A stretch of 64,000 nt of DNA from Breznakiella homolactica. GTDB lineage: Bacteria > Spirochaetota > Spirochaetia > Treponematales > Breznakiellaceae. The notes below the pieces were generated by a model. The model did not search any database. It worked only from the letters and a program-made list of their open reading frames with translations, and was not told the origin of the DNA. The stretch spans positions 806,001 to 870,000 of the forward strand of contig NZ_CP067089.2 in assembly GCF_016616095.2 (NCBI RefSeq), written 5' to 3'. This document shows, in pieces, positions 9,180 to 43,513 of the stretch (the first letter of the stretch is position 1; each line of letters opens with the position of its first letter). Position numbers and translations under genes: made by a program.

Positions 9180-9335
9180 AGAACATCCTCCATCCGCATT
9201 AATTATCTGTCCAAAAAGAACCATCTTCAGGACAAACATAATGAACACCTGAAACTATATTTTAGGTGTCCGGTGAAATCTCATTGTACTGCCGCAGCCG
9301 CGGTTCATTTCTAATTGATTTTTTTAATTTGAAAA

Positions 9336-9360: not shown

Positions 9361-10053
9361 TCAATCCTCGTCGGGTACTACAAAATACCGGTCGTGCTTC
9401 TGGTCATATTCAATGATGATTGCCCGGCTGCCCCTGGCAAGTGTATTCGGCGTTTCGGCCCTGACGTTTACGTTTATTGATGTTCCCCTGGTTTCAATGT
9501 CGGCCCGGCCGAACTGTTCATCCACCGAACCGGTGGTAACTGTGCAGAGTGAGCCTACCAGGGTTTTCTTTGAAGCGGCGGCGTGGGACCTGAACAGTCC
9601 CCGCAGGGGCCGCAGGATGACGGAACTGACAAGAAAAGAAACAAACCCGCTGGCCGCCAGGATAGCCGCTCCGGCGATCCAATACAGAAGGGAGGGCCGC
9701 AGGGGTTCAAGCAGCCACATATTTGAAAGACAGCAAATCGTCCAGGAACTGAGGATAACCACCGAAAGGACAATGGTGATGGGAATGTCCTTCAATCCAA
9801 GGGCGGCCAGGAGCCCGCCGAGGCCGCCGCCGTGGCTCTGTGCCCCGGCATCGGCGTCGATATCAATTTCGCCTTCGGCGGAAACATCGCCGCCTGCGTC
9901 AGCCCCTGCATCCCCGATGTCGGTGTCAATATCGGATGAATCGGTATCCACCAGTCCCACCGCCGCCAGCAGCCAATAGATGATCACCACCGCCAGAAGG
10001 ACGGTGTAGACCACGGTGGGGAAACTGATCAGGGAACTTAAAAAAAGCTGCAT
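9361..10053 (-). CDS. OB-fold / NfeD-like membrane protein, YqiJ-like
   Basis: NfeD-like proteins pair with flotillins and carry a C-terminal OB-fold exposed to the cytoplasm. The 230-residue product has one hydrophobic stretch at about residues 12-35, then an acidic linker of Asp/Ala/Gly (about 36-75). Two or more further membrane segments follow (about 90-145). The C-terminal soluble part of about 80 residues (LVGSLCTVTTGSVDEQFGRAD and RAIIIEYDQKHDRYFVV) has the beta-rich look of the OB-fold. The ATG at 10053 is preferred over the one at 10071 because AGGGG lies 8 nt before it. It heads the cluster with the flotillin and AAA genes, and a weak hairpin lies in the gap to the flotillin gene. 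Confidence 0.82.
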   Translation of the reverse strand: MQLFLSSLISFPTVVYTVLLAVVIIYWLLAAVGLVDTDSSDIDTDIGDAGADAGGDVSAEGEIDIDADAGAQSHGGGLGGLLAALGLKDIPITIVLSVVILSSWTICCLSNMWLLEPLRPSLLYWIAGAAILAASGFVSFLVSSVILRPLRGLFRSHAAASKKTLVGSLCTVTTGSVDEQFGRADIETRGTSINVNVRAETPNTLARGSRAIIIEYDQKHDRYFVVPDED

Positions 10054-10187
10054 GGCCGTGCCCCTTTTCATTGGTTAAAACGCCGGCATAACACCGGGTT
10101 TATAGTATTGCAGGATAGTGAAATTGTACAGGGCACCGGGTTGTTTTTTACTTGTTATCGCAGCAAACAGAGTCTATGTTTTAGGAC

Positions 10188-25376: not shown

Positions 25377-26654
25377 ATGAAAAAGAGTAAACTTCTGGGA
25401 ATTTTCTGTCTGAGTCTGTCGTTTTTTATGGCTGTAACCGCATGCAACAAAAGCTCCGGAGGCGCTTCTTCCGGCTCGGGGACAACGGTAGAACTTGTCT
25501 ATTGGTCAAACTGGAACAATACCGAGTCCCAGGGCAGGGTGATGCGGGACGCTATCAAGGAATTTGAGCAGCAGAACCCCGGTGTCAAGATCAGCATTGT
25601 CAACAACGGACGGGAGAACAGAAAAGTCGTTCTTCCCGCATTGGAAGCGGGCCAGCAGGTGGATCTGATGGACCAGAATATCGATTTTGCCATCAGGACC
25701 TGGAAGGACTATCTGCTGAATATGGACGATTATTATACACGGACCTTCCCCTCCACCGGCGGAAAAGCCCTGGGCGAGGCTCTGCTGCCGATGTATGTGG
25801 ATCTTACCCGGTCCAAAGACGCGAACGGCAGTCTGTATGGAATCCCGTACCAGCCGAATGTCTGGGGGGTGATGTACAACAAGGACCATTTCGCCAAGGC
25901 CGGCATTACTAAGGCGCCGGAAACCTGGGCGGAATTCCTGGATGTCTGCGCGAAGCTCAAGGCCGCCGGATTTATACCGATCACCACCGACGACGCGTAC
26001 GCCGACATCTGGTTTGGTTTCCATCTGTGCCGCTATAAGGGTTCAGACTGGGTGGACGGTCTGGTTAACGGCCGCAACAGCTGGAACGATCCCCAGGTTC
26101 TCCAGGCCGCCAAGGATTTTGAGGAACTCGCGGCCAAGGGTTATATGCCTTCTACGGTTTCCGCCAATATCTGGCCCGCGGGTCAGCAGGAAATTGCATT
26201 GGGTGAAGTCACCATGTACCTGAACGGTTCATGGCTTCCGAATGAAGTGATGGCCACCGCCGGCCCTGATTTCCCCTGGGGTATGTTTGCCTATCCCGAG
26301 GTACCCGGCGGTGCCGACGATAAGGGCGCGACCGTTGTCGGTTCACAGATAATGTGTGTAAACAAAAACACCAAGTACCCCGATGAGGCAATGGCCTTCG
26401 CGGCGTTTATTTCCACCGGCAAGTACGATCAGCTGCTCAGTGCCCAGACCTATGGAATCCCCATGGATCAGTCAAACCAGTGGCCGAAGCAGCTGGAGGA
26501 TGCCAAGGGTATTTTTGAAGGCTTTACCAAGCGGTATCCCGCCAGCACCACAATCCGCAACAACGCGGATAAGAACTCCCTTATTAAGGAAGAGTTTGTC
26601 AAACTGATCGGCGGCAAAGTCTCCGCCGCCAGATTTATCGAAGCTATGAAATAA
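25377..26654 (+). CDS. Extracellular sugar-binding lipoprotein (family 1)
   Basis: Solute-binding subunit of a CUT1 importer, 425 residues. The lipoprotein signal peptide ends AVTACNKSS, giving a lipidated Cys near residue 23 and anchoring in the outer face of the inner membrane. The mature part has ELVYWSNWNNTESQGRVMRD and YGIPYQPNVWGVMYNKDHF, typical of family-1 sugar-binding proteins. AGGAGG sits 8-9 nt before the ATG. A terminator-like hairpin with a T-run follows the stop (26674-26710), so more binding protein than permease is probably made. The gene heads an operon with two permeases, DUF5107 protein and 5'-nucleotidase. Confidence 0.95.
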   Translation: MKKSKLLGIFCLSLSFFMAVTACNKSSGGASSGSGTTVELVYWSNWNNTESQGRVMRDAIKEFEQQNPGVKISIVNNGRENRKVVLPALEAGQQVDLMDQNIDFAIRTWKDYLLNMDDYYTRTFPSTGGKALGEALLPMYVDLTRSKDANGSLYGIPYQPNVWGVMYNKDHFAKAGITKAPETWAEFLDVCAKLKAAGFIPITTDDAYADIWFGFHLCRYKGSDWVDGLVNGRNSWNDPQVLQAAKDFEELAAKGYMPSTVSANIWPAGQQEIALGEVTMYLNGSWLPNEVMATAGPDFPWGMFAYPEVPGGADDKGATVVGSQIMCVNKNTKYPDEAMAFAAFISTGKYDQLLSAQTYGIPMDQSNQWPKQLEDAKGIFEGFTKRYPASTTIRNNADKNSLIKEEFVKLIGGKVSAARFIEAMK

Positions 26655-26673
26655 GATTTTTAAAGCTATCCAG

Positions 26674-26710
26674 TGGCAGGGCGGCAAAGCCGTTCTGCCA
26701 TTATTTTTTT
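26674..26710 (+). terminator. Attenuating terminator between binding-protein and permease genes
   Basis: TGGCAG, GG, CGGC, loop AAA, GCCG, TT, CTGCCA forms a stem with one internal bulge pair, followed by TTATTTTTTT. The structure is that of a Rho-independent terminator but lies inside an operon, so it is probably partial. Confidence 0.75.
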
Positions 26711-26748
26711 CATTAATTCGGAACTCCGGCAGAGAAGGAGATATGCCT

Positions 26749-27654
26749 ATGAAACGCAGCAAATTGGCCCTGCTCATTTTTATCGGCCCCGCGGTGCTGC
26801 TGTACCTGCTGATATATCTTTATCCAACGGTCCGCACCACGGTTATGAGTTTTTTCACAACCCCCACCGTTACATCCCCGGTGTCCCAGTGGTCTTTTTT
26901 CGGGTTCGGAAATTACCGTACCCTGATCGACTCCAATATGTTCCAGGCGGCAATGGTCAACCTGGTGAAGATCCTGGTGTACGGTGGCGTTATAACATTG
27001 TTCATCGCCATGGTGTTCGCCGTGATACTGACATCGGGGGTGAAGTTCAAGTCATTTTTCCGGGCGGTCATCTATCTGCCGAATGTCATCGCGGCGGTCG
27101 CCCTGGGCACGATGTGGCTGCAATACGTCTATAACGCCAAATACGGATTGCTTAAGACGGTTTTTGAAACCCTGGGACTCAAAACCCTCGCCGCGGTCCA
27201 GTGGACTTCGCCGGAACATATTTTCGGTTCGATGCTGGTGGCCTACTGTTTCGGTATGGTGGGTTACTTTATGACAACATACATGGCCGGTATTGAACGT
27301 ATTCCCCGGGACTGCTACGAGGCGGCCACCATTGAGGGGGCCAATGTTTTCCAGCAGTTTTTCAGGATCACCCTGCCGCTGCTGAAGGGCGTTTTCCGTA
27401 CGACCGTTGTGCTCTGGGGCGTACGTTCGGTGGGTTTCTTTGTCTGGTCCCAGGTATTCACACCACTGATTCCCATGCGGGCCACCATCACGCCGGCGGT
27501 CTATATGTACCGCAATGTCTTCGGCGTTGACGAGAACACCCTGGTGGATGTAGGCGCCGGCGCCGCTGTGGGCGTTATAATGACCATCACCGTTATTGTG
27601 ATGTTCCTGGTAATAAATCTTATCCTCCGCGATAAGGATGATCTTGAATTCTAG
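26749..27654 (+). CDS. CUT1 sugar ABC importer permease, MalF type
   Basis: Inner-membrane permease of 301 residues with about six helices. The coupling loop is RDCYEAATIEGANVFQQFFR followed by ITLPLL, a clear EAA motif. The N-terminal helix is LALLIFIGPAVLLYLLIYLYP. AAGGAG lies 8 nt before the ATG at 26749, making it the better start than the ATG two codons earlier, which nearly abuts the site. It follows the binding-protein gene and its attenuating hairpin and precedes the MalG-type gene by 15 bp. No ATPase subunit is encoded in the operon. Confidence 0.94.
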   Translation: MKRSKLALLIFIGPAVLLYLLIYLYPTVRTTVMSFFTTPTVTSPVSQWSFFGFGNYRTLIDSNMFQAAMVNLVKILVYGGVITLFIAMVFAVILTSGVKFKSFFRAVIYLPNVIAAVALGTMWLQYVYNAKYGLLKTVFETLGLKTLAAVQWTSPEHIFGSMLVAYCFGMVGYFMTTYMAGIERIPRDCYEAATIEGANVFQQFFRITLPLLKGVFRTTVVLWGVRSVGFFVWSQVFTPLIPMRATITPAVYMYRNVFGVDENTLVDVGAGAAVGVIMTITVIVMFLVINLILRDKDDLEF

Positions 27655-27669
27655 GGGGAGGATTAGCGT

Positions 27670-28512
27670 ATGAAAAACTCCGGACTGAAAAAACAGGCGA
27701 AACTGATTCCCGGCTATATTCTGGTCTGCGCCTGGGTGCTTTTTACCTTTGTCCTTATCGGCTGGATATTCCGGGCGTCGCTTTCGACCACGGCGGCCAT
27801 ATTTTCGAACACCATGTCCACATCGGGGATCCACTTTGTAAACTACTGGAATGCCCTGTTTCACCATAACATAGCGGGCTATTTCGTCAATTCGATCATA
27901 TATACGTTTTCTTCGGTATTTCTCGCGGTCTGCATCTGCGCCCCCGCCGCCTACGGCCTTTCGCGGTTCCGGTTCCGGGGGAACAAGCTGCTCCAGAGTA
28001 TGTTTATTGCCGGACTCGGCATCCCGACCATCATGATCATCATGCCGCTGTTTTCACTGATCGCGTCCATGAAGCTTACCAACAACCGGTTTGTGCTTAT
28101 TCTGCTGTACATCGGTGTGGTTCTGCCCTTTACGACCTACTACCTGATGACCTTCTTCCGGAATCTTTCCCATGAATACGAAGACGCCGCCGCCATCGAC
28201 GGCTGCGGCCAGGTGGCGACTTTCTGGCGGATCATGCTGCCCCTGGCGCAACCGGGCATAGTCACGGTGGTGGTTTTTAACTTCATCACCATCTGGAATG
28301 AGTTCTTTATTTCCCTGATCTTCGCCAACGATACGGCCCTGCGTCCGGTTTCGGTGGGACTCTATTCCATGGTCAACTCCATGCGGTATGTCGGCGACTG
28401 GGCGGGCATGTTCGCGGTGGTGGTCATTGTATTCCTGCCGACCTTTATTCTCTATATCGCGCTTTCGGAAAAAATTGTCAGCGGTGTCACCTCCGGCGGG
28501 TTAAAGGGGTGA
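27670..28512 (+). CDS. CUT1 sugar ABC importer permease, MalG type
   Basis: Partner permease of 280 residues. About six membrane helices are visible. The EAA loop is HEYEDAAAIDGCGQVATFWR followed by IMLPLA, and the protein ends SEKIVSGVTSGGLKG, the usual MalG-type terminus. GGGGAGGATTAGC precedes the ATG. The stop is 30 bp before the DUF5107 gene. Together with the preceding gene it forms the membrane channel for the substrate bound by the 25377 lipoprotein; sulfated or phosphorylated sugar is possible from the neighbouring sulfatase and nucleotidase but not shown. Confidence 0.94.
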   Translation: MKNSGLKKQAKLIPGYILVCAWVLFTFVLIGWIFRASLSTTAAIFSNTMSTSGIHFVNYWNALFHHNIAGYFVNSIIYTFSSVFLAVCICAPAAYGLSRFRFRGNKLLQSMFIAGLGIPTIMIIMPLFSLIASMKLTNNRFVLILLYIGVVLPFTTYYLMTFFRNLSHEYEDAAAIDGCGQVATFWRIMLPLAQPGIVTVVVFNFITIWNEFFISLIFANDTALRPVSVGLYSMVNSMRYVGDWAGMFAVVVIVFLPTFILYIALSEKIVSGVTSGGLKG

Positions 28513-28542: not shown

Positions 28543-30639
28543 ATGGCTGCCTACGTCTCGGCCCTTACCATCCCCGGCGCTCCCCTGGAGGGCGAAAACC
28601 CGCTCCCGGTTTTCCGGGAGCTCAGCCATGCATCCAATGTACAGGATGACGGTACCCTGGAGCCCGATGAGCTGGAAGGTTTCGGAAGAGAGACAGCGGC
28701 CCGGGTGCTGCCGTATACGATGCAGGACCGCTACACCCGGTCCCGCAGGATGCTTACCCTGAAGACCATTGTGCTGGAAAACGGCCTGCTCCGGGCGGTT
28801 TTTCTGCCGGAGTACGGGGGACGGCTGTATTCACTGACCGAGGTGAAAACCGGCCGGGAGCTTTTGTTTACCAACCCGGTGTTCCAGCCCGCCAACCTGG
28901 CCCTGCGGAACGCCTGGTTTTCCGGCGGAATCGAATGGAACATTTCCCAGAAAGGCCATACCTTTACCACCTGTGATTCCGTTTTTTTCGCTCTATTAAA
29001 AGATGAAACCGGAACGGATTTTCTCCGCATGTACGAGTATGAGCGCCAGAAAAAACTGTTCTGGCAGATTGACTTTCATCTGCCGGAAGGCAGCGCGTAT
29101 CTGCAGGCCCACGTCAGAATCGTGAACGACCGGGACACGGCCACACCGATGTACTGGTGGACCAATATCGCCGTCCCGGAAACCGAACGTACCAGGGTGT
29201 TTTCGGCCTCCGCAGAGACGGTCTTCCAGAACAAGGAAGCGTCCTTCCGCTGGATGACGGAGCATAATATCGAAATGAACAGCGCGAATTTCCGTGCCGC
29301 CCCGGTTTTCTTCGGCCACGCAGAACTGCCGTACCTTACGAACGGGCAGGGGCGGCACGCGGATTTCGATGTTTCCTATCCGATGCGGTATAACCGTTCC
29401 AACGAGTATTTTTTCAAGAACCCCGCCGGACTTGCCTCTCCCTGGGAAGCCGCGGTGCAGGATGATGGGTTTGTCTTTTTCGAACGCTCAACCCAGCCGC
29501 TGCGGTACCGCAAGATGTTCTGCTGGGGCGCGCACCGGGGAGGCCGCCGGTGGGAGGATTACCTCGCGCGGCCCGGGGAGGGCGCCTACGTTGAAATCCA
29601 GGCGGGGCTCGCGCCAACCCAGGTCCATGGCATGGTGATGCCGGAGAACAGTGTTATTGAATTCACGCAAATTTTCGGCGGATTCACCTGCGCCGATCCG
29701 GACCGCTGCCATGATGAATGGACTAAGTCAAAAGTTTTTATTGAAAGTGAGATCGATGAACGGCTTCCGGCACGGGAGGTCCTCGCCGCGGACAGCCGCC
29801 TCCGTTCGATGGCCGAACTGCCGGCGGAACGGCTGCTGCATCACGGCTCCGGCTGGGGCGCCCTGGAGGAAAACCGCCGCCGCTATGCCGGTGACAAAGC
29901 TATTCCAAAGGGGTTTGTTTTTCCGGAAACGACCCTTGGAGAACGGCAGATGCCCTGGCTGCTCCTGCTGCGGGAAGGACGGCTGCCGGATCTTGACGCC
30001 AATACACTTCCGTCGTCATGGATGGTGGATAACGCCTGGCAGCAGCTGCTGGAAGCGGCGGCGGATACGGGAAGTCCCGCCGCGCTGCTGCATCTTGGGG
30101 TAATGCAGTATGAAAACGGCGCCCACGAACACGGAAAAAACCTTTGGCTTAAAGCTGCCGATCTTTTTCCCCATCCGGTGATATACCGTAATCTCGCCTG
30201 CGTATGTCTGCAGCACGGCGATCCGGGCCGGGCCGCCGAATGGATGGGCAGATCCTCAGCGGCGGAACAGGGCCGTCTGGACAGAGCCTTTGCAGAGGAA
30301 TACCTCATGCTTTTGATTGAAGCAGGGCGTTTCGGTGAAGCCTGGCACTTCTATGAAGATCTGCCGGAAACCCTCCGCGGCCATGAATACATCCGGATCC
30401 TGGCGGGGCAGGCGGCCATTGAAGTTGGAGCTTATGATTATCTGCGGACCCTGTTCAGCCATGAGTTTGCCGCCATCCGTGAAGGGGAGAGTATTCTGAC
30501 GGATTTATGGTTCCGCTGGCAGGCGGTTGAACTGGCGGGGCAGCGCGGTGTGCCATACGACGCCGCGCTGCTGGAGGAAGTCCGGCGCACCCTGAAGCCG
30601 CCGGAAATTATTGATCTTCGGATGAATACAAACATCTAA
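28543..30639 (+). CDS. DUF5107 / TPR-containing protein, possible glycoside-acting enzyme
   Basis: The 698-residue product has an N-terminal region of about 350 residues resembling DUF5107. It is beta-rich, with VLENGLLRAVFLPEYGGRLY and FSGGIEWNISQKGH, a galactose-mutarotase-like sandwich pattern. The remainder (about 470-698) is helical and looks like tetratricopeptide repeats (NAWQQLLEAAADTGSPAALL, then EHGKNLWLKAADLFPHP). No signal peptide is seen, so it is probably cytoplasmic. AGGAGA lies 8 nt before the ATG. DUF5107 proteins commonly accompany sugar importers; the reaction is unknown. It lies in the operon after the permeases, and probably acts on the imported sugar. Confidence 0.8.
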   Translation: MAAYVSALTIPGAPLEGENPLPVFRELSHASNVQDDGTLEPDELEGFGRETAARVLPYTMQDRYTRSRRMLTLKTIVLENGLLRAVFLPEYGGRLYSLTEVKTGRELLFTNPVFQPANLALRNAWFSGGIEWNISQKGHTFTTCDSVFFALLKDETGTDFLRMYEYERQKKLFWQIDFHLPEGSAYLQAHVRIVNDRDTATPMYWWTNIAVPETERTRVFSASAETVFQNKEASFRWMTEHNIEMNSANFRAAPVFFGHAELPYLTNGQGRHADFDVSYPMRYNRSNEYFFKNPAGLASPWEAAVQDDGFVFFERSTQPLRYRKMFCWGAHRGGRRWEDYLARPGEGAYVEIQAGLAPTQVHGMVMPENSVIEFTQIFGGFTCADPDRCHDEWTKSKVFIESEIDERLPAREVLAADSRLRSMAELPAERLLHHGSGWGALEENRRRYAGDKAIPKGFVFPETTLGERQMPWLLLLREGRLPDLDANTLPSSWMVDNAWQQLLEAAADTGSPAALLHLGVMQYENGAHEHGKNLWLKAADLFPHPVIYRNLACVCLQHGDPGRAAEWMGRSSAAEQGRLDRAFAEEYLMLLIEAGRFGEAWHFYEDLPETLRGHEYIRILAGQAAIEVGAYDYLRTLFSHEFAAIREGESILTDLWFRWQAVELAGQRGVPYDAALLEEVRRTLKPPEIIDLRMNTNI

Positions 30640-32627: not shown

Positions 32628-32642
32628 ATCAATCCGGCAGAC

Positions 32643-32675
32643 AGCCCCTAAAGTTTTTTAGGGGCTGATTTTTTA
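32643..32675 (+). terminator. Rho-independent terminator of the sugar/nucleotidase operon
   Basis: AGCCCCTAAA and TTTAGGGGCT form a perfect 10-bp stem around GTTT, followed by a T-run (GATTTTTT). It lies 16 bp after the nucleotidase stop and separates this operon from the regulator at 32737. Confidence 0.92.
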
Positions 32676-32736: not shown

Positions 32737-34698
32737 ATGCAGATTTTGTCAGCCAACGGAGAGATCATCCTAAAACAGCTTCTGGAATCACGGGGAACAG
32801 TTTCCATCAGCAAACTGCAGGAATACTGCAACTTGTCCCGGAAACACGTTGCCTACGAATTGCAGTTAATCGATGATCTCCTCAGAGAAAACGGCGCCCG
32901 CATCCATGGGACCAAGGGAAAGGGATTTGAAATCAAAATCCTTTTCCCGGAAGAATTTGCCGGGTTCAGCAATGATTTTCTCCATGATAAACAGCGCAAT
33001 CAGTATCTTCATTTTTCGCGGAACTTCCTGGCGTATAAAATACTTTTTGATCTGGTTCTCAATGAGCGGTTTTTCAGCATCGATGAATTAACCCAGATGT
33101 ATTTCTATTCCCGGGGCACTATTTCAAAAAGCATTAAAACCGTAAAAACCCTGCTGAACAAATACGGATGCACCCTGATCTCCAGGCCGAACTACGGCAT
33201 GAAATTTGTGGGAACCGAATGGAATACCCGGATCTGTCTTATTTACACGGATAAAATCGCATTCCGGATGAGCTCGGTGATAAAGGATTCAACCGATGAA
33301 GGATTCGGTAAATTCATCGACAAGGACCGGTACCAGCTTCGGGACATTGAACGTATTATCCAGGAAGTTTTTAACCAGTACAATCTTAAAATTCCCTATA
33401 TTTACCTGACGAAACTGAAACTCTATGTGGTTATATCCCAGACCAGGGCTGACCAGTACGATCTCCTGGATTTTAATGAGACACAGAAAAGCGAAATCCT
33501 GGAAAGTCCCTATGCGGTTCCCGCGGAGGCCATCGCCGAACGGCTCAACTCCCTGGGCTATACCATCCGCCGGAAAGATATTGACGCGATCACCGTTTTC
33601 CTGCTCTGTTTCTGTTCAAGAATCAGCGGCGGTGACTATGACCGTCCGGAAACAGCGGAGCAGTGCAGAAATGATACCCTTGATTTAATCGGCTATATCA
33701 GAGATTTGTACTTCGGTGTGGATAACTACCTGGATAATGAGTTTATCCGTGAATTTTCCTGCTTCCTTCTGGGGCTTAAAGCCCGCACTGTATTTCAGCT
33801 GCCCGTGGATGAAGAAAGTGTATACCAGGTAAAACAGGATGGTTCGTTTATATCGGATATATGCCGGGATTTTGCCGTTTTGTATTACCGGAAATACGGC
33901 ATCAAACTGCCGGAGCCGGAAATACTTTCAGTATATTTTATTATCCATAATTCCTTTTCCCGGTACACCCAGCGGGAGGCTAATTACAGAATCATCCTGG
34001 TTTCCCGTTACGGGATTCATTTTTCCAGGAACGTGGCAAACCGGATATTGGAAGAATACCCCTCCAAGATTATTTCCATTGATGTGGCGGAGTTTACCGA
34101 TGTCGCGTATATGGATATGCAGCCCTATACGTTTCTGCTTACCGATATTGAACAGGACCGGTACAATTTTATTGAGCTGCCCATTATCAGGCTCGATTTT
34201 TTCCGGTTTCCCGGACAGTCCCTTTCCCTGAATAAATACCTCTCCATTCTGCTCCGGTCGGAACTGCAGGGCCTTATTAAGGACGGCAATGTAATCAAAA
34301 ACAGGATTTTTAAAACTAAGCTGGAAGTCTACGGGTACCTGGCGGACCATTATATCAGCGCCGGCCGGCGGGAAGAATTTATCCGGGAATGTTCCGACAA
34401 CAATACTTTTCTCAGTGACGAACGCGGCAACCGGATCGCTCTGGTATCAGCGGACAGCCGTTTTTACGGCAAAAAGGAAATTGTCCTTATCACCGGAAAA
34501 ACAGCCTTTCTCTGGGATAACGAACCGGTGCAGATGATTGTTTTTTTCAACAGAAAAAACAGACCTTATGTCGAGATAAAGACACTGAATTCGATGCTGA
34601 TAACATTTATGCACGCCAGTGCGGGGCTTGTCGAACAGATATCCGCCAGCAATGCCGATGAAATCATAGAATTTATTGTCGGCAGTATTTACCCTTAA
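32737..34698 (+). CDS. MtlR/LicR-type PRD regulator lacking the PTS phosphorylation residues
   Basis: The 653-residue protein resembles MtlR/LicR transcription regulators. It has an N-terminal winged-helix pair (KLQEYCNLSRKHVAYELQLI; FSIDELTQMYFYSRGTISKS), two PRD-like helical regions (about 195-300 and 310-410), an EIIB-Gat-like domain (about 417-475) and an EIIA-like domain (about 518-652). The expected phospho-residues appear replaced. The EIIB loop reads ILVSRYGIHFS, with Ser423 where Cys is expected; the EIIA strand reads IALVSADS, with Ser571 where His is expected. The first His of each PRD is Tyr230 and Phe343 by my alignment; His404 may be a retained PRD histidine. It seems leaderless. 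It precedes an EIIB-like gene and a peptide-type importer, and is their likely regulator. Confidence 0.82.
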   Translation: MQILSANGEIILKQLLESRGTVSISKLQEYCNLSRKHVAYELQLIDDLLRENGARIHGTKGKGFEIKILFPEEFAGFSNDFLHDKQRNQYLHFSRNFLAYKILFDLVLNERFFSIDELTQMYFYSRGTISKSIKTVKTLLNKYGCTLISRPNYGMKFVGTEWNTRICLIYTDKIAFRMSSVIKDSTDEGFGKFIDKDRYQLRDIERIIQEVFNQYNLKIPYIYLTKLKLYVVISQTRADQYDLLDFNETQKSEILESPYAVPAEAIAERLNSLGYTIRRKDIDAITVFLLCFCSRISGGDYDRPETAEQCRNDTLDLIGYIRDLYFGVDNYLDNEFIREFSCFLLGLKARTVFQLPVDEESVYQVKQDGSFISDICRDFAVLYYRKYGIKLPEPEILSVYFIIHNSFSRYTQREANYRIILVSRYGIHFSRNVANRILEEYPSKIISIDVAEFTDVAYMDMQPYTFLLTDIEQDRYNFIELPIIRLDFFRFPGQSLSLNKYLSILLRSELQGLIKDGNVIKNRIFKTKLEVYGYLADHYISAGRREEFIRECSDNNTFLSDERGNRIALVSADSRFYGKKEIVLITGKTAFLWDNEPVQMIVFFNRKNRPYVEIKTLNSMLITFMHASAGLVEQISASNADEIIEFIVGSIYP

Positions 34699-34755
34699 AG
34701 ACCACAGACCGCGAGTATTCAAAAAAACAGGCACCTACCTGGGAAATTATTTGTA

Positions 34756-34784
34756 TTGAGTTCTCCAAATTCCAATTTTACACT
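34756..34784 (+). promoter_or_regulatory. Possible promoter of the EIIB-like/peptide importer operon
   Basis: TTGAGT (34756-34761), a 17-nt spacer and TACACT (34779-34784), each 4/6 to consensus. It would give a leader of about 78 nt to the ATG at 34869. Placement between the regulator and the operon supports it. Confidence 0.4.
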
Positions 34785-34868
34785 GAATCATCAGGAATGA
34801 CCCGGATAGCTGCCGGTTCTGCGGAGGGCTGCGTAACCTGCGGCGTAACTTTGTTTTTGGAGGATCCT

Positions 34869-35369
34869 ATGATCATGGCACTGCGGCTTGATGAAGATTT
34901 AATCAACAGCCAGTCGATTAACGGCTGGTGTGAATCATTAGCCGCAGACAGCATCATCATTGCCAATGACCAGCTGGTTACGGATGGGGTCTCTTCCATG
35001 GTTCAGAAAATGGCGGTACCAAGAAACATTAAAGTCGCGATCAAGGAACTGCAGAGCGCCCTGGTACTGCTGCAGGACCCGTCCTTCGGCGATCTGAAAA
35101 TTCTGATTATTGTTGATACCCCCGGGGATCTTTTACTGATCCTTGAACAGCTGCCCGCCGGTATTCCTGTGTATGTGGGAACCTACGGGAGAAACAACGC
35201 CGGGCATTCTGACGCGGTCCAGCTGGCACCGGGTTTCAGGGTTACAGCGGACGAAATAAAACTTTTCCAGAAGGTCTTTGCCTTGCAGGAACATACGGTT
35301 TTCCAGCGGACAGCCGCGGAGGAACCGGTCCCCTTGGGGAACTTACTGCAAGAAAATAATATTTTTTAA
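34869..35369 (+). CDS. PTS mannose/sorbose-type EIIB-like protein without the phospho-histidine
   Basis: The 166-residue product matches the mannose/fructose/sorbose EIIB fold across its length: ALRLDEDLINSQSINGW at the start, then DSIIIANDQLVTD, RNIKVAIKELQSAL and KILIIVDTPGDLLLILEQ. Active EIIB proteins carry R-I-D-D-R-L-I-H-G-Q, where His accepts phosphate. Here Asn13 replaces the His and Ser14 the Gly, so phosphotransfer should be impossible. No EIIA, EIIC or EIID is encoded nearby. The ATG at 34869 is preceded by GGAGGA at proper spacing; the longer frame from 34797 has none. It sits 13 bp before a dipeptide-type binding-protein gene, so it is presumably a ligand or regulatory subunit rather than a transporter part (inference). 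Confidence 0.85.
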   Translation: MIMALRLDEDLINSQSINGWCESLAADSIIIANDQLVTDGVSSMVQKMAVPRNIKVAIKELQSALVLLQDPSFGDLKILIIVDTPGDLLLILEQLPAGIPVYVGTYGRNNAGHSDAVQLAPGFRVTADEIKLFQKVFALQEHTVFQRTAAEEPVPLGNLLQENNIF

Positions 35370-35382
35370 AGGAGACACAAAA

Positions 35383-36972
35383 ATGAAAAGGTCTGTATGG
35401 TTTTTCCCGGCGGTTATTCTGGCGGGAATGCTGCTTGCCGGATGCGGTTCCGGTGAAAAATCGGGTACCGCCGCGGGTACATCAGGTGCGGCGAAACGGG
35501 ATGTCATATCCCATCTGCGGGTCGGGATCAACGCCGATGTGGCTGACCTGGCTCCGTATTCCGCCGGCGGAAACGGCCGCAACAGTATTATGTTTGCCCT
35601 CTATGAGTACCTCGGTTCACTGGAAAGCGTGGGCGGTGAGCTGAAAGGGCAGATCATGAAGGATTACGTTACCAAGGACGGTTCGGTTTACGATATCACA
35701 ATATACGACTACGTGAAGGACACCGCGGGCAACCATCTTACGGCGGATGATATTATCTTCAGTTTTAATAAAGCAAAGGAAAAGGGAAACAATACCAATA
35801 CCCGGCGCATTGTACGCATTGAAAAAACCGGCGACTATTCCGTCCGTTTGGAAATTGACGCGAATTATGTAGGAGGGTTTACCGCGGTTCTCGGAGCGGT
35901 TCCGATAGTTTCCCGGAAAGCGTATGAAGCGAGTTCCAATGAAATGGCCGCAAATCCCGTGGGAACCTCGCCGTACCGGGTAAGCAGCTTTATCCCCGGA
36001 TCCAGTGTGACCCTGGAACGGACCGACAGCTACTGGCAGACCGATGAGTCACTCCGGACAGTGTACGCCACCGCCAATCCCGTGAAGATAACCTATACCA
36101 CCATCAAGGAAGCGGCCCAGATGGCAATCGCCCTGGAAACCGGAAACATTGACCTCGGCCTCTCCCTGGACGCCATGGAGGCAACCCGGTTCATGGCCGG
36201 CGGGAACAGCTCAAAGGGTTTCACCGTATTCCAGGAAATAACCAATATCGGAAACCAGGTATATCTTTCCGGTGATCCCAAGGGACCGTTCTACAGCAAC
36301 CCCGATCTTCGCCGGGCCGTGCTCTACGCCATCGATAAGCAGGGGATTGTTGACGCGGTACTCAGAGGCTATGGGGTAATTGAGTATACCTTCGGGGCTG
36401 AATCATTCGGTGATTTCCAGCCGCAGTGGAAGAACGAGGATTATTTTAACTACAATCCCGAAAAAGCAAAGCAGTTCCTTGCGTCGGCCGGCTACAGCGG
36501 AAATTCCCTCAGGATCATGACCGACAATACGGCTCAGCGGAACAGGGTTGCGCAGATCATCCAGGGATACCTCCAACAGGTAGGTATCAAGTCGGAAATC
36601 CTGCAGTACGACAGCGCGCTCTTTAATTCATACAAGACCAAACCCAGTGAATGGGATCTCTGCCTCGACAATACCGGCGCGTCCGATTATGTGGTGAGTG
36701 TGTGGCGCAGCAAATTCGATGCCCGGCAGTACCAGCTCGGCTCCACCAACGGCTGGAAGGATGATACCATGCAGCGGCTCCTGGAGACGGCTCTTTCCTT
36801 TGACGGGCATACCCCCGCGAACGTAAATGCCTTCCATCAGTATTTTAAGGAACAGGCCTACGCCATGGGTCTTTTCAACCATACTTTCTTTACCGTTGCG
36901 GTTGACAATATTTCCGGCGTCAAGTTTGACAGCAAGATGTTCGTAATATGTCCGGCTATTGAGGTATTTTAA
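35383..36972 (+). CDS. Dipeptide/oligopeptide-type solute-binding lipoprotein (family 5)
   Basis: Family-5 binding protein of 529 residues for the importer encoded downstream. The lipoprotein signal is ILAGMLLAGCGSGEK with a lipidated Cys near residue 21. The mature part shows YDITIYDYVKDTAGNHLTADD, VGTSPYRVSSFIPGSSV and PDLRRAVLYAIDKQGIVDAV, all typical of DppA/OppA. AAAGGAG precedes the ATG by about 9 nt, so the longer frame starting at 35278 is rejected. Family-5 proteins also carry nickel, opines or oligosaccharides, so the ligand is open. A perfect 11-bp inverted repeat follows the stop, before the permease gene. Confidence 0.93.
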   Translation: MKRSVWFFPAVILAGMLLAGCGSGEKSGTAAGTSGAAKRDVISHLRVGINADVADLAPYSAGGNGRNSIMFALYEYLGSLESVGGELKGQIMKDYVTKDGSVYDITIYDYVKDTAGNHLTADDIIFSFNKAKEKGNNTNTRRIVRIEKTGDYSVRLEIDANYVGGFTAVLGAVPIVSRKAYEASSNEMAANPVGTSPYRVSSFIPGSSVTLERTDSYWQTDESLRTVYATANPVKITYTTIKEAAQMAIALETGNIDLGLSLDAMEATRFMAGGNSSKGFTVFQEITNIGNQVYLSGDPKGPFYSNPDLRRAVLYAIDKQGIVDAVLRGYGVIEYTFGAESFGDFQPQWKNEDYFNYNPEKAKQFLASAGYSGNSLRIMTDNTAQRNRVAQIIQGYLQQVGIKSEILQYDSALFNSYKTKPSEWDLCLDNTGASDYVVSVWRSKFDARQYQLGSTNGWKDDTMQRLLETALSFDGHTPANVNAFHQYFKEQAYAMGLFNHTFFTVAVDNISGVKFDSKMFVICPAIEVF

Positions 36973-37045: not shown

Positions 37046-38005
37046 ATGGTTAAATTTATCCTCAAACGATTGATCTGGATGGTGCCGGTAGTTCTTGGGG
37101 TGACGGTTTTTCTTTTTACACTTCTTTATTTTGTGCCGGGCGACCCGGCGGTGGTTATCCTGGGCGCCAACGCTACCCAGGCCGAACTTGAGTCGAAAAG
37201 AGAAGACCTGGGGCTGAATGATCCGTACCTGGTACGGCTCAGCCGATATATGGTTGACGCGTTCCTGTATTTCGATTTCGGCAAATCCTACATTACCAAC
37301 ACCAGCATTACTTCGGACTTGTTAATCCGTTTTCCCAGGACCTTCCTGCTGGCTTTCAGCTGTATTCTCCTATCCATCGTTGTGGGGGTGCCCCTCGGGG
37401 TCAACGCAGCGGTTCACCAGAACGGGTTCGCGGACAGGGCCTGCATGTTCCTGGCGCTGCTGGGAGTTTCCATGCCGGCTTTCTGGGTCGGCTTGATGCT
37501 GGTCCTGGTATTTTCCCTGCGGCTGGGATGGCTGCCCCCTTCGGGCATCGGCGGTCTTCAGTATTATATACTGCCCGCTATTGCAAACTCCTTCGGGGGT
37601 ATCGCGAACCAGGCCCGGCAGACCCGTTCCAGCATGCTGGAGGTTATCCGTTCCGATTATATTACCACCGCCCGGTCAAAGGGGCTTTCGGAGCGGAAGG
37701 TCATTTATTCCCATGCCCTGCCCAACGCCCTTATCCCGGTCATAACCATTGCGGGCTCATCCTTCGGCCGTATGCTGGGGGGTACCCTGGTAATCGAAAC
37801 GGTCTTTTCCATTCCCGGAATCGGCAGTTACATGATCGGCGCCGTGAACAACCGGGATTATCCGGTTGTAATGGGCTCGGTTATTTTCCTGGCGATTTCC
37901 TTCAGTATGGTCATGCTGCTGGTGGATCTTATCTATGCCTATGTTGATCCCCGTATCAAAGCCCAGTACATGAGCGGCTCAAAAAGGAGGCGGCACCATG
38001 CCTAA
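37046..38005 (+). CDS. Dipeptide-type ABC importer permease, DppB type
   Basis: First permease of the PepT-family importer, 319 residues. It begins MVKFILKRLIWMVPVVLGVT and contains the DppB-type segment FTLLYFVPGDPAVVILG. The loop EVIRSDYITTARSKGLSERK, with HALPNALIPVIT next, is the ATPase-coupling EAA motif. Five or six membrane helices are visible. The stop lies inside the next gene: the two coding regions overlap by 8 bp (37998-38005), indicating coupled translation. It is the third gene of the operon after the EIIB-like and binding-protein genes. Confidence 0.95.
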   Translation: MVKFILKRLIWMVPVVLGVTVFLFTLLYFVPGDPAVVILGANATQAELESKREDLGLNDPYLVRLSRYMVDAFLYFDFGKSYITNTSITSDLLIRFPRTFLLAFSCILLSIVVGVPLGVNAAVHQNGFADRACMFLALLGVSMPAFWVGLMLVLVFSLRLGWLPPSGIGGLQYYILPAIANSFGGIANQARQTRSSMLEVIRSDYITTARSKGLSERKVIYSHALPNALIPVITIAGSSFGRMLGGTLVIETVFSIPGIGSYMIGAVNNRDYPVVMGSVIFLAISFSMVMLLVDLIYAYVDPRIKAQYMSGSKRRRHHA

Positions 38006-38888
38006 TAATCAGCTTGCTGCCATGGCAGCGGATCCAGAAATCCGTAAGCACAGTAATTTTGCGGCCCTCATGGGCCGGCTCCGGAAAAACAACGCCGCGA
38101 TGCTGGGACTTATTATTTTCCTTGTCCTTGTGCTCATTGCGGTTTTTTCTCCCCTGATCATGCCGTATCCCTATGATCACATGGATTTAATCAACGCCTA
38201 TTCCCCTCCGTCGGCGGAACATTGGTTCGGTACGGATGATCTTGGCCGGGATGTTCTGAGCCGGATTATGTACGGCGGACGCTATTCCCTGAGCATCGGC
38301 ATTATTGCCACCGGTTTTTCCGTTTTGATCGGGATGGCCATCGGCGCCGTGGCGGGATACTTCGGCGGCAGGGTAGACAACCTGATCATGCGTTTTATGG
38401 ATATTATACAGGCGGTTCCCGGTCTTCTTCTGACCATCGCGATTTCCGCGGTCCTGGGGTCCGGCTTTGATAAAACCATCATGGCCCTGGGCTTAAGCAA
38501 TATTCCGAACTACGTCCGGATCGTCAGGGCTTCCATCATGAGTATCCGGAAAATGGAATACCTCGAAGCGGCGGAATCCATCAACTGCAGGAACAGCCGG
38601 ATCATTCTGCACCATGCCCTGCCGAACGCGCTTTCTCCGGTTATCGTCCAGGCAACCATGGGTGTTGCCAATACGGTGCTGACCGCGGCGAGCCTCAGTT
38701 TCATCGGTCTCGGTGTTCAGCCTCCGACCCCTGAATGGGGGGCCATGCTTTCGGCGGGAAGGAATTTCATCCGTGATTATCCCCACATGGTCATTTTCCC
38801 GGGGGTTTTTATCATGATCTCGGTCCTTGCCCTTAATATGCTGGGGGACGGACTCAGGGACGCCCTCGATCCCAAGCTGAAAAATTAA
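37998..38888 (+). CDS. Dipeptide-type ABC importer permease, DppC type
   Basis: Second permease, 296 residues, with an N-terminal cytoplasmic stretch before the first helix (AMLGLIIFLVLVLIAVFSPL). It has the DppC hallmarks HWFGTDDLGRDVLSRIMYGG and SLSIGIIATGFSVLIG. The coupling loop is RKMEYLEAAESINCRNSRII, then LHHALPN. It ends GDGLRDALDPKLKN as usual. AAAGGAGG lies 10 nt upstream of the ATG. It overlaps the DppB-type gene by 8 bp and is 12 bp before the first ATPase gene. Confidence 0.95.
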   Translation: MPNNQLAAMAADPEIRKHSNFAALMGRLRKNNAAMLGLIIFLVLVLIAVFSPLIMPYPYDHMDLINAYSPPSAEHWFGTDDLGRDVLSRIMYGGRYSLSIGIIATGFSVLIGMAIGAVAGYFGGRVDNLIMRFMDIIQAVPGLLLTIAISAVLGSGFDKTIMALGLSNIPNYVRIVRASIMSIRKMEYLEAAESINCRNSRIILHHALPNALSPVIVQATMGVANTVLTAASLSFIGLGVQPPTPEWGAMLSAGRNFIRDYPHMVIFPGVFIMISVLALNMLGDGLRDALDPKLKN

Positions 38889-38900: not shown

Positions 38901-39896
38901 ATGGGAAATAATCCTTTTTTATCAGTTGATAATCTGGTGGTGGAGTATACCAGCGAAGGCCAGACAATTCACGCGGTCAATCATGTATCGTTCACCCTGG
39001 AACGGGGGAAAACACTGGGGCTCGTAGGAGAAACCGGAGCGGGAAAGACCACCATCGCAAAGTCTATCCTCCGTATCCTTCCCGATCCTCCCGCGAAAAT
39101 CAAAGACGGCGCCATCAGTCTGGAGGGTGTAAACCTCCTGGAGCTGCCCGAGACCGCCATGTACAAAATCCGGGGAAGCAGAGTATCCATGGTTTTCCAG
39201 GATCCCATGACCGCCCTCAACCCGGTCATGCGGGTAGGCAAGCAGATCGCCGAGGTTATCCAGCTTCATAACAATATTTCCAAGGCCGAAGCGGTAAAAC
39301 GCGCGGAGGCCATGCTGGAGATGGTAGGAATCCCAACTGAACGGTACAACGAATATCCCCACCAGTTTTCCGGGGGCATGAAACAGCGGGTGGTTATTGC
39401 CATCGCCCTGGCCTGCAGTCCTGAACTGCTGATTGCCGATGAACCCACCACGGCTTTGGACGTAACTATCCAGGCCCAGGTTCTGGAAATGATCAGCAAA
39501 CTGAAGCAGGAAAAAAACATGGCCCTGATCCTGATCACCCATGACCTTGGTGTGGTCGCTGAGGTATGTGATGAAGTCGCGGTGGTTTACGCCGGTGAAA
39601 TCGTGGAGTACGGAACAAAGGAAGATATTTTTGACCATCCGGCCCATCCCTATACCCGGGGACTTTTCGGAGCCCTGCCGGATATGGACAGCGATACGGA
39701 CCGGCTTTCTCCCATCACCGGACTTCCGCCGAACCCGTCGGATCTGCCGAAGGGCTGCTACTTCAGCCCCCGCTGTCCCCTGGCGGAGGAAAAATGCCTG
39801 TCCGCTCATTTTGACCTTACCGAATATCAGCCGGGCCATACGTACCGCTGCTGGAAGCAGGTAACCCAGGAGGCACCCCGTGGCACCGTTAATTGA
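38901..39896 (+). CDS. Dipeptide-type ABC importer ATPase, DppD type
   Basis: ATP-binding subunit of 331 residues. Walker A is GETGAGKTT (about residues 42-50), the Q-loop lies at MVFQDPMTALNP, the signature is FSGGMKQR, Walker B is LLIADEPTTALD, and the switch His is in LITHDLG. The C-terminal extension has four spaced Cys-containing elements (GCYFSPRCPLAEEKC) as in DppD/OppD. All catalytic residues look intact. It overlaps the next ATPase gene by 17 bp. With the DppF-type subunit it forms the ATPase heterodimer of this importer. Confidence 0.96.
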   Translation: MGNNPFLSVDNLVVEYTSEGQTIHAVNHVSFTLERGKTLGLVGETGAGKTTIAKSILRILPDPPAKIKDGAISLEGVNLLELPETAMYKIRGSRVSMVFQDPMTALNPVMRVGKQIAEVIQLHNNISKAEAVKRAEAMLEMVGIPTERYNEYPHQFSGGMKQRVVIAIALACSPELLIADEPTTALDVTIQAQVLEMISKLKQEKNMALILITHDLGVVAEVCDEVAVVYAGEIVEYGTKEDIFDHPAHPYTRGLFGALPDMDSDTDRLSPITGLPPNPSDLPKGCYFSPRCPLAEEKCLSAHFDLTEYQPGHTYRCWKQVTQEAPRGTVN

Positions 39897-40836
39897 AGTC
39901 AGGAATCTTAAAAAATACTTTGATACTCCCAAGGGTTCGCTCCACGCGGTGGATGGTGTCACCTTTACCATCGGCGCCGGCAGGACCATGGGGGTCGTGG
40001 GAGAATCGGGCTGCGGAAAATCAACCCTAGGCCGGGTTATCATTCATCTCCTGGACAATACCGGCGGAACGATTCTCTTTGACGGCGAAGATATAAGCAG
40101 GGTAACGAAGAAGACCCTCCGCCGTCTCCGGGAAGACATGCAGATCATTTTTCAGGATCCTTTTTCATCCCTCAATCCCCGGCTCACCGTGGAGGAAACA
40201 ATCAAGGAACCCCTCCTGCTGTCAAAAAAATATTCCAAGAAGGATCTCGAACTGGAAACTCTCCGGCTGATGGACATGGTGGGAATAGACCGCCGGCTCA
40301 TGCGTTCATATCCCCATGAACTGGACGGCGGACGGAGGCAGAGGGTAGGGATCGGACGGGCTTTGGCGCTCAACCCGAAATTCATTGTCTGTGACGAACC
40401 GGTTTCGGCTCTGGATGTTTCAATCCAAGCCCAGGTACTGAACCTGCTCCAGGATCTGCAGGATCAGTACGGACTGACCTACATGTTCGTCACCCACGAC
40501 CTGTCGGTGGTACGGCATATTTCCGACGACATCTGTGTAATGTATCTCGGGCAGCTGATCGAAACATGTCCCTCAAAGGAACTGTTCAGAAATCCCCTGC
40601 ATCCGTATACAAAAGCGCTGCTGTCGGCAATTCCCAAAACGGATATCCATAACAGGACCAAACGGATTCTCCTGAAAGGTGAAATTACCAGTCCCATAAA
40701 CCCGAAACCCGGATGCCGTTTTGCCGCCCGGTGTCCCCATGCCGCTGAACAGTGCAGGGAACCCCAGGTATTGGAAGAAATATCTCCCAGCCATTTTACC
40801 GCCTGCTGCCGGGTCCGTGAATTGTCAAAGCTATAA
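39880..40836 (+). CDS. Dipeptide-type ABC importer ATPase, DppF type, altered signature motif
   Basis: Second ATP-binding subunit, 318 residues, starting at a GTG after GGAGG. Walker A is GESGCGKST (41-49), Q-loop IIFQDPFSSLNP, Walker B FIVCDEPVSALD, switch His in FVTHDLS. The signature motif is LDGGRRQ instead of LSGGQRQ: Asp149 replaces the Ser that contacts ATP and Arg152 the Gln. I recall this variant from other DppF/OppF-like proteins, so it is a subfamily trait rather than damage. It implies one standard and one weakened ATP site in the DppD-DppF pair. The Cys-rich C-terminal extension (CRFAARCPHAAEQC) is present. Its start lies within the end of the DppD-type gene. Confidence 0.95.
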   Translation: MAPLIEVRNLKKYFDTPKGSLHAVDGVTFTIGAGRTMGVVGESGCGKSTLGRVIIHLLDNTGGTILFDGEDISRVTKKTLRRLREDMQIIFQDPFSSLNPRLTVEETIKEPLLLSKKYSKKDLELETLRLMDMVGIDRRLMRSYPHELDGGRRQRVGIGRALALNPKFIVCDEPVSALDVSIQAQVLNLLQDLQDQYGLTYMFVTHDLSVVRHISDDICVMYLGQLIETCPSKELFRNPLHPYTKALLSAIPKTDIHNRTKRILLKGEITSPINPKPGCRFAARCPHAAEQCREPQVLEEISPSHFTACCRVRELSKL

Positions 40837-40854: not shown

Positions 40855-42084
40855 ATGAATGTACAGGCTAATCAAACAGAATTTCCCGGGGATAACCAGA
40901 ACGTACCCTGGTACCGGAACGGGCAATTCATTCTTATTTTTATCATCGCATTCCTGGTTTACAGTTCCAGCAATATGCTCAGTCTGACCCTGCCGAAATT
41001 CGCCAGTGAGATGGGCGCTACCAGCCAGATGGTCGGAACCTTAGCCGGGATTTTCGCGACCTGCGCGCTGCTGATGCGGCCTATCTCCGGGCAGGTCGTT
41101 GATAATGAGGATAAGAAAATCACCCTCCGGATTTGTCTCCTGGTTCTTCTGGTTTCGGTTTTCGGACTGACGCTGTCAACGAATTACTACATGCTGCTCA
41201 TCTTCCGCGGACTGAACGGCCTCGCGTGGGGGATTGGATCAACCCTGTGCATGACCATCGCCACAAGCTGCTTTTCCAGCAGCAATATGGCCGCCGGCAT
41301 CGGTATCTACGGATTGGGGCAAAGTCTGGCCCAGACCATTGCCCCAATGTTTGCCCTGCCCATTGCCGGGACCATCGGGTACAACGGCCTGTACTGGGTA
41401 AATGTCTGTCTCATGGTCATGTGTCTGCTGCTTACATTCCTGATGAAATTTCCCGCGAGAGAAAAGCATGAACGGCATTATTCATTGAATATAAGAAAGA
41501 TGATCTGTTTTCCCGCGTTTCTTCCGGCGGCGATGACCATGTGCAACAGCATCGCGAAATCCTCAATCACCGCGTTCCTGGTTATTTATACCGGAACCAT
41601 GGGCATTGAAAACATCGGCCTTTATTTTTCCGTACAGGCGGCGGTGATTTTTATAAGCCGGCCCCTGGTTTCGAAACTGGCGGATACGGTGGGAACCATG
41701 AAAATACTTATTCCCTGTGAAATGCTGACCATCGCGGGACTGATACTCATTTCCCGGTCGCAAAGTATCGGCGGGTTTATTCTCGCGGCGGTAATCATGG
41801 GCATCGCCGTGGGCGGCGAACAGCCGATCCTGATGGGCGAATGTGTCAAAAGCGTTCCGCCGGCCCAGCGGGGCAGTGCCAGCAATACAAGCTATATCGG
41901 CACCGACCTGGGAAATATTATCGGCAGCAACTTCGCGGGTTTCCTGGTCGCATCCGTGGGGTACAGCTTCATGTATATGTCCTATACCCTGCCGGTTTTA
42001 ATCTGCACCATCATATACGTCATTCTCTATTCAAGAAAACTGAAAACCATACCAATAGGAGATTTAAATGCAGAACCAGACTGA
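40855..42084 (+). CDS. Major facilitator superfamily transporter
   Basis: MFS secondary transporter, 409 residues, with twelve predicted membrane helices in two halves. The helix 2-3 loop reads GIFATCALLMRPISGQVVDNE, then DKKITLR, the MFS motif A region. The middle of the second half has MGIAVGGEQPILMGECVKSV, typical of drug/sugar-type members. The soluble N-terminus is short (about 25 residues). It lies 18 bp downstream of the DppF-type gene and overlaps the hydrolase gene by 17 bp, so it belongs to the same operon. Export of a product of the imported compound, or a second uptake route, is possible; the substrate is unknown. Confidence 0.93.
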   Translation: MNVQANQTEFPGDNQNVPWYRNGQFILIFIIAFLVYSSSNMLSLTLPKFASEMGATSQMVGTLAGIFATCALLMRPISGQVVDNEDKKITLRICLLVLLVSVFGLTLSTNYYMLLIFRGLNGLAWGIGSTLCMTIATSCFSSSNMAAGIGIYGLGQSLAQTIAPMFALPIAGTIGYNGLYWVNVCLMVMCLLLTFLMKFPAREKHERHYSLNIRKMICFPAFLPAAMTMCNSIAKSSITAFLVIYTGTMGIENIGLYFSVQAAVIFISRPLVSKLADTVGTMKILIPCEMLTIAGLILISRSQSIGGFILAAVIMGIAVGGEQPILMGECVKSVPPAQRGSASNTSYIGTDLGNIIGSNFAGFLVASVGYSFMYMSYTLPVLICTIIYVILYSRKLKTIPIGDLNAEPD

Positions 42085-42928
42085 ACAGACCTCTTTGTAT
42101 CCCATGGTGGAATTCAAGGAAAACACCTTTGAACTCGACGAATTTGACTGCGCCAGTATTTTTGTGCTGGTCGGCACGGAAAAAGCCCTGGTTATCGATA
42201 CCGGAATGGGCATAGGGAATTTACGCAGGGCAGTGGAACGGATAACAAAAAAACCGGTTACCGTGGTAATAACCCATGCCCACGTAGACCATATCCAGAA
42301 TACCCACCAATGGGGTGAATGCTACATCAATGAACTGGACATGCCCATGTTTGTGGATGATGTGGAACGGCGCAAATACGACGCCAAGCTGATCGCGAAA
42401 CGCCAGGGCGGTATCTACGCCTATGACCTTGACCGGGATATAACCCCCTGGACCTGCCAGCCGGTTCTGAACCCCCTCGTTGAAGGCCAGTCATTCGACC
42501 TCGGAGGAGGGCGTATCATCACAGCCTATTGGGTTCCGGGCCATTCAAAGGGCCACATGATGTTCCTGGACGAACAGTCCCGGAGCCTGTTTGCGGGGGA
42601 TTCCCTGAACAACAATCTGGGCGTCGCCGGAACCATGGATCCCTCAAAACCGAACTATGTCGGGATCAAAGGCGTCCTTGGGGGACTGGAAAAAATGAAA
42701 GCCCTGGAAGGTTCTTATGACGGAATCTACAATGGCCACCACGATTTCCGCGCCCTTGGGTTGCCCCTGGACCAGGAAGTGCTGCCCAATGCCATTGATA
42801 TCTGTCATCAGATCCTGGACGGTACCTGCACGGTACAGCAGAAGCCCAACCCCCTGCACAACGACCGTACCATGAATTATGTGCAGAAAGGAAATTCCTG
42901 GCTTTCTATTAATCCCGATTTTATATAG
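42068..42928 (+). CDS. Metallo-beta-lactamase-fold hydrolase
   Basis: MBL-superfamily hydrolase, 286 residues, probably cytoplasmic as no signal peptide is present. The metal motif is THAHVDH (His70, His72, Asp74, His75). Further ligands are likely in WVPGHSKGHMM (His), LFAGDSL (Asp) and YNGHHD (His). This set binds two metal ions in the glyoxalase-II/lactonase branch. AGGAG precedes the ATG, which lies 17 bp inside the MFS gene. As the last gene of the importer operon it may hydrolyse an ester, lactone or amide of the imported compound; a peptide or acyl-lactone cannot be told apart from sequence. Confidence 0.92.
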   Translation: MQNQTEQTSLYPMVEFKENTFELDEFDCASIFVLVGTEKALVIDTGMGIGNLRRAVERITKKPVTVVITHAHVDHIQNTHQWGECYINELDMPMFVDDVERRKYDAKLIAKRQGGIYAYDLDRDITPWTCQPVLNPLVEGQSFDLGGGRIITAYWVPGHSKGHMMFLDEQSRSLFAGDSLNNNLGVAGTMDPSKPNYVGIKGVLGGLEKMKALEGSYDGIYNGHHDFRALGLPLDQEVLPNAIDICHQILDGTCTVQQKPNPLHNDRTMNYVQKGNSWLSINPDFI

Positions 42929-43023: not shown

Positions 43024-43368
43024 TTATTTAACAAGATATCTGGTGTTATTTTCCGGCTGGGATGACAATTCCAGAATACCATCATTCCTGATATTCCATG
43101 TATATAAAACCAGAGAATTAATAATTATCTTTTCTCCATCCGTAATTACGGAAAAGGAAGCCGCTTGCCCATAACCCCGGTCTATGGTCATACTGTAATC
43201 GGTAAATTCAACCCAATCATTTTCGTTTTTATTGGCCCCGTCCGAATCACAGGCATACCATTTTCCACGAAGTTCCGTTGGTATAGGATCGTCATCAACA
43301 TCTTCACATCCGGAAAAGGAAAAAACCAAAAGAACGGCCAATAAGATTAAACATGTTTTCTTTCTCAT
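43024..43368 (-). CDS. Small lipoprotein, function unknown
   Basis: The 114-residue product starts MRKKTCLILLAVLLVFSFSGCE, a lipoprotein signal with a spirochaete-style lipobox (FSGC), lipidated Cys near residue 21. The mature part, about 94 residues with many Asp and aromatic residues (LRGKWYACDSD, WVEFTDYSMTIDRGYG, IINSLVLYTWNI), suggests a small beta-sheet or lipocalin-like domain, but no family is recognised. The ATG at 43368 is chosen because it begins the signal; a start six codons earlier is possible. No strong ribosome site is seen. It points away from the 43617 operon and toward the MBL gene, as a single gene. Confidence 0.72.
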   Translation of the reverse strand: MRKKTCLILLAVLLVFSFSGCEDVDDDPIPTELRGKWYACDSDGANKNENDWVEFTDYSMTIDRGYGQAASFSVITDGEKIIINSLVLYTWNIRNDGILELSSQPENNTRYLVK

Positions 43369-43513
43369 TTTTAAAGTATCCGGCAATAATAATAAAATTC
43401 TTAACTTATTAATTTTAATACCATACTATTTTTTTACAAGAGAAATGGGATAATAACAGGGGATTTCCTATTCCCGGCTCAATCCATAATATCTCCAAAA
43501 TAAAAGATTTTGA

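Follow-up and report, generated by a model that had tools for sequence, protein, structure and literature searches.

Relay chemistry appears to be absent from both a PTS regulator and the neighbouring EIIB in Breznakiella homolactica, although their folds are kept and PTS genes are present in the host. The pair lies in a 64 000-nucleotide window (positions 806 001 to 870 000 of contig NZ_CP067089.2) and consists of a regulator of the MtlR/LicR type and a mannose/sorbose-type EIIB-like protein, the latter encoded by the first gene of an operon for an ABC importer. The initial annotation of this DNA had proposed that both proteins had lost their phosphorylation sites and kept their folds, and sequence profiles bore this out. 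The losses in the two proteins far exceed chance.

Table 1. Features of the regulator/EIIB-like locus (positions are those of the window; SBP, solute-binding lipoprotein)
Feature	Position	Strand	Remark
Intrinsic terminator	32642..32667	+	11-bp stem and T tail; between upstream phosphoesterase gene and regulator
Regulator, 653 aa	32737..34698	+	HTH_11, Mga-type HTH, PRD1, PRD2, EIIB(Gat)-like, EIIA(Mtl)-like
Tyr230 codon	33424..33426	+	first His of PRD1
Phe288 codon	33598..33600	+	second His of PRD1
Phe343 codon	33763..33765	+	first His of PRD2
Ile402 codon	33940..33942	+	second His of PRD2; His404 two residues on
Ser423 codon	34003..34005	+	EIIB Cys
Ser571 codon	34447..34449	+	EIIA His
Gap of 170 bp	34699..34868	+	likely operon control region
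Mannose/sorbose-type EIIB-like protein, 166 aa	34869..35369	+	PF03830
Family 5 SBP of ABC importer	35383..36972	+	AGGAG at 35370
ABC permease, Opp2B/NikB-like	37046..38005	+	under family cut-off
ABC permease, DppC type	37998..38888	+	overlaps preceding permease gene
ABC ATPase, OppD/DppD type	38901..39896	+	
ABC ATPase, OppF/DppF type	39880..40836	+	overlaps OppD/DppD-type gene
MFS carrier	40855..42084	+	top NCBIfam match CntE staphylopine exporter (1.6e-19), far under cut-off
MBL-fold hydrolase	42068..42928	+	overlaps MFS gene; final gene of operon

Pfam searches placed HTH_11 (6.8e-11) and Mga (1.1e-9) domains of the regulator above cut-off and PRD (4e-4) just under it. The C-terminal half, with the EIIB and EIIA domains, was too diverged for Pfam and was assigned by profile alignment. 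Full-length comparison with a Peribacillus BglG/MtlR-type regulator using hhalign gave a probability of 99.9 (E 6.5e-31); the profile alignment to relatives spanned residues 4–647, and the C-terminal half alone gave 96 %. A family profile that included the regulator matched solved structures of the LicT PRDs, the MtlA EIIA domain and the galactitol EIIB. The full-length profile alignment and these structure matches indicate that the MtlR/LicR layout is real, and the gene boundaries and layout first assigned to the regulator thus held, the former by the reading frame. The order of domains in MtlR/LicR activators (HTH_11, Mga HTH, two PRDs, EIIB(Gat) and EIIA) was present, with the EIIA-like region at residues 510–653. 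This region sets the regulator outside the HTH-HTH-PRD-PRD-EIIB type of the PCVR (AtxA/Mga/MafR), and the AcpB/EbpR/MafR family model covered residues 11–151 only (28.1 bits; cut-off 130). Single-sequence AlphaFold models had mean pLDDT values of 46.5 and 34.5, and a fold search with these poor models found nothing significant.

The phosphorylation sites of the regulator were placed by both MAFFT and hhalign, which were concordant on all six substitutions (Table 1). In sequence order, the residues paired by hhalign in the Peribacillus relative were H224, H283, H340, H399, C420 and H566, in agreement with the phosphosites of Bacillus subtilis MtlR (H230, H289, H342, H399, C419 and H599; PMC8560693). 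The serines predicted at the EIIB Cys and EIIA His positions were thereby confirmed, as were the Tyr and Phe predicted at the first His of each PRD, and F288 and I402 mark the loss of the second His as well. His404, which had been thought a possible survivor in PRD2, was aligned with a Gly by contrast, the site itself being occupied by I402, and was rejected as the PRD2 site. The EIIB Cys and EIIA His were kept in all 18 aligned relatives, each of which possessed at least three of the six phosphosites. Judged from the alignments, all six canonical phosphosites of the regulator are absent, and the loss is complete rather than partial.

PRD1 of the regulator contains no His at all; PRD2 still has His404, and another histidine, His428, is present in the loop of the EIIB domain. 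Since these two remain and AtxA takes phosphate at non-canonical positions (PMC8560693), the regulator might be phosphorylated at another residue. PTS signals would then enter through His404 or His428, much as AtxA relies on histidines at positions not common to MtlR (PMC8560693); His404 is in the right stretch of PRD2, displaced from the site by two residues, and PTS genes exist in the host. Such a route is nevertheless distinctly improbable given a PRD1 devoid of His, the joint loss of the EIIB Cys and the EIIA His, and an EIIB-like protein that is blocked too, its R10D substitution reversing the charge of the loop. The regulator probably functions without phosphorylation.

The EIIB-like protein matched the SorB, LevE and ManX structures (PDB 1nrz, 1ble and 1vsq) over its whole length and belongs to their family. 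Its PF03830 match (70.1 bits, 3.3e-19, cut-off 27) was the lowest found in the phylum, where others scored 127–169 bits. The initial annotation was right that this EIIB homologue carries Asn in place of the phospho-His, a residue that is His in 44 of 44 homologues, but the frame listed for it (34797–35369) begins too early: the true start, closely preceded by a GGAGG ribosome site, is at 34869, and it is from this start that the phospho-site residue is numbered 13 (N13 codon at 34905–34907). The homologues all carry the loop R-x-D-x-R-x-x-H-G-Q (44/44), whereas the EIIB-like protein reads R-L-D-E-D-L-I-N-S-Q. It therefore differs from SorB, LevE and ManX by R10D, H13N and G14S, each at a position invariant in the 44 homologues, with a charge reversal in the active loop at the first of these. 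R6, D8, Q15 and W20 were retained. In a phylogenetic tree the protein grouped loosely with the host's own EIIB and with LevE-type EIIBs from Firmicutes, on a branch of 2.08. No EIIA, EIIC or EIID genes adjoin its gene.

The long branch and low PF03830 score would also be expected if both genes were drifting relics of a PTS regulator module that had been acquired and had lost its permease, and the absence of detected orthologues of either gene and the low GC content of the regulator gene (45 %, compared with 51–59 % in most adjoining genes) point the same way. Such decay is improbable, however, as frames of 653 and 166 codons are free of stops and the ribosome site is proper, the EIIB-like gene leads a tight operon, and invariant structural residues stand beside replaced catalytic ones. 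Despite the length of the branch, a pseudo-enzyme accounts for this pattern of catalytic loss and structural retention better than random decay does.

Three HPr genes were found in the host genome, together with a full mannose-type PTS at 1.363–1.371 Mb (EIIA, EIIB with its His, EIIC, EIID and enzyme I) and a second enzyme I at 4.2 Mb; enzyme I, EIIA and EIID were identified by eye from translations. The host's His-bearing EIIB is encoded with EIIC and EIID, away from the EIIB-like gene. The presence of HPr, enzyme I and mannose PTS genes rules out a missing host PTS as the cause of the phosphosite loss, which is thus local to the regulator/EIIB-like module. The second PTS locus (L090, G000:C1:4190000-4209900) combines a DUF4311-like membrane protein, stand-alone PRD domains, enzyme I and HPr, and a similar cluster of DUF4310-4312, aldolase, BglG and ptsP genes was seen on a Bartonella plasmid (L083).

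The regulator gene has the terminator, a strong one, on its 5' side and the operon, in the same orientation, on its 3' side. No PTS permease was found beside the regulator; ABC, MFS and hydrolase genes adjoin instead, as noted at the outset, in a compact operon of eight genes headed by the EIIB-like gene; the SBP gene begins 13 bp beyond its stop, and four further ABC genes and the MFS and MBL genes follow. A weak sigma-70-like sequence (TTGAGT-17-TACACT) lies near 34758–34786 in the gap between regulator and operon, under the scan threshold. Searches of this gap (34699–34868) gave no Rfam match and its RNA fold was insignificant (z −0.73), on which grounds RNA control of the operon leader was ruled out.

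The cnt operon has the gene order cntABCDFE, an opine/oligopeptide ABC importer with an MFS carrier, and operons of this type share with the present one the order SBP, B, C, D, F, MFS and the top match of the MFS carrier to CntE. They differ from it in that its CntE and CntA scores are far under the cut-offs, no opine biosynthesis genes adjoin, and an MBL hydrolase takes their place. By its matches the importer belongs to the Opp/Nik type, and no substrate is named for it because the CntE, Nik and Opp matches were all under their family cut-offs.

Several other features of the locus and window were recorded. The low GC content of the regulator gene (32737–34698) could signal horizontal acquisition. 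The unit preceding the regulator contains a 698-aa DUF5107 protein (28543–30639) directly 3' of a sugar ABC importer (25377–28512), and an AT-rich stretch (GC 0.42) that separates the ABC operon from the one after it holds a short lipoprotein-like frame on the minus strand (43024–43386). Further upstream, a 1658-aa protein with DUF3686, DUF7902 and AAA domains (2089–7062) is adjoined by two proteins without a Pfam match (7074–9239 and 9364–10071).

No orthologue of the regulator was found among 200 genomes of the family or 393 of the phylum, where the best matches had 20–30 % identity and mostly covered part of the protein only. No His-less EIIB occurred among the matches from 249 relatives and the 393 phylum genomes. 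Plasmid matches to the regulator reached ~20–27 % identity at best, and those examined were ordinary regulators with phosphosites; the plasmid EIIB matches examined had all kept the His. A scan of viral contigs was empty, and two pattern scans of ~85 000 species genomes, in which only near-identical peptides are detectable, returned no close relative. The suggestion that the pair might co-occur with peptide ABC genes in other spirochaetes was therefore not upheld in these sets (200 family genomes, 393 phylum genomes and 249 relatives), and the lack of a detected orthologue of either gene counts against the model preferred below.

The nearest ABC operons, in genomes G062 and G006 of the same family, contain neither the regulator nor an EIIB and have a LysR-like or GntR-like gene nearby (by eye). 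In G006 (L070, 1732–11350) an Opp/Nik-type importer is again accompanied by an MFS carrier and by MBL-fold hydrolases, of which such sets have one to three, with a GntR-like regulator near. The order there is SBP-B-C-D-F-MBL-MBL-MFS-MBL, which suggests that the importer, MFS and MBL genes form an established cassette and that its regulator varies among genomes.

Related operons without an EIIB are what would be seen if the regulator were phosphorylation-blind and acted alone, through ligand, dimerization or abundance, with the EIIB-like protein binding the host EIIA or EIIC-EIID or being inessential. The adjacency and the total loss of sites are solid, and position is the sole link between the two proteins. 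Action of the regulator alone is nonetheless rather unlikely, since it would require that an EIIB-like gene came to lead the operon beside a PTS-derived regulator, both phosphosite-dead, by coincidence.

A precedent for the pair is known from Enterococcus faecalis, where MafR has no PRD His in common with MtlR, AtxA or Mga, as is likewise true of AcpA (PMC8560693). The direct target of activation by MafR is OG1RF_10478, whose product has an EIIB fold but neither Cys nor His, and for which the authors proposed protein–protein action; control by contact is also mentioned there for unphosphorylated EIIB (PMC10773906). Both systems thus combine a PRD regulator with an EIIB-fold protein lacking the phosphorylation Cys or His, and the same idea being embodied in MafR/OG1RF_10478, the pair in B. 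homolactica is a variant and not a new category; to call it a new way to control an ABC system, as in the initial annotation, was too strong (PMC10773906; PMC8560693). The two systems also differ: MafR is a global regulator of 482 aa without an EIIA domain, OG1RF_10478 (111 aa) is closest to the Cys-type (Lac/Chb) EIIBs whereas the EIIB-like protein is of the mannose type, and no ABC operon target is described for MafR in the consulted passages of PMC10773906, whereas such an operon adjoins the regulator. AtxA, Mga and AcpA/B resemble the regulator in their HTH-PRD-EIIB order, and their PRD His residues are often displaced or absent (PMC8560693), but they lack the EIIA domain that it retains. 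With the MtlR/LicR/ManR activators, on the other hand, it shares the domain set over its full length, and it differs from them in having none of the six phosphosites and no PTS permease operon. The new elements are an EIIA domain kept despite the loss of all six sites, a mannose-type pseudo-EIIB, and an apparent target that is an ABC operon.

Phosphate on the EIIB Cys and EIIA His turns MtlR-type regulators off, contact with an EIIB protein can turn them on, and the active state of MtlR is that with dephospho EIIB and EIIA domains. Against this background, the best explanation overall, held with a little less than even confidence, is an activator that is blind to phosphorylation and acts on the adjoining operon, possibly with a pseudo-EIIB partner. 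The regulator would be a descendant of MtlR/LicR activators that no longer receives PTS phosphate, locked in one signalling state by non-phosphorylatable residues at the six sites: the serines at the EIIB Cys and EIIA His positions would impose a fixed dephospho-like state, and the loss of the PRD His residues would remove HPr control at the canonical sites. It may then be constitutively competent for DNA binding and tuned through contact, binding at 34699–34868 to govern the eight-gene operon; that it controls this operon is likely.

The EIIB-like protein would be a pseudo-phosphocarrier, unable to take phosphate and most likely acting by contact, in the way that EIIBs engage PRD regulators. 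As the first product of the controlled operon it is a natural candidate partner, and it might feed back on the regulator or report the state of ligand or transporter. That it binds the regulator is possible but somewhat doubtful. More tentative again is the fuller proposal that the two form a phosphate-free complex in which a former phosphocarrier senses a ligand or partner and switches a former PTS regulator, so that a peptide-type ABC importer is controlled.

If this explanation is true, the contact-only action of PTS regulators would become directly testable, a PTS-type switch would be tied to an ABC importer and not to a PTS permease, and the scheme proposed for MafR and OG1RF_10478 would gain a second example from another phylum.
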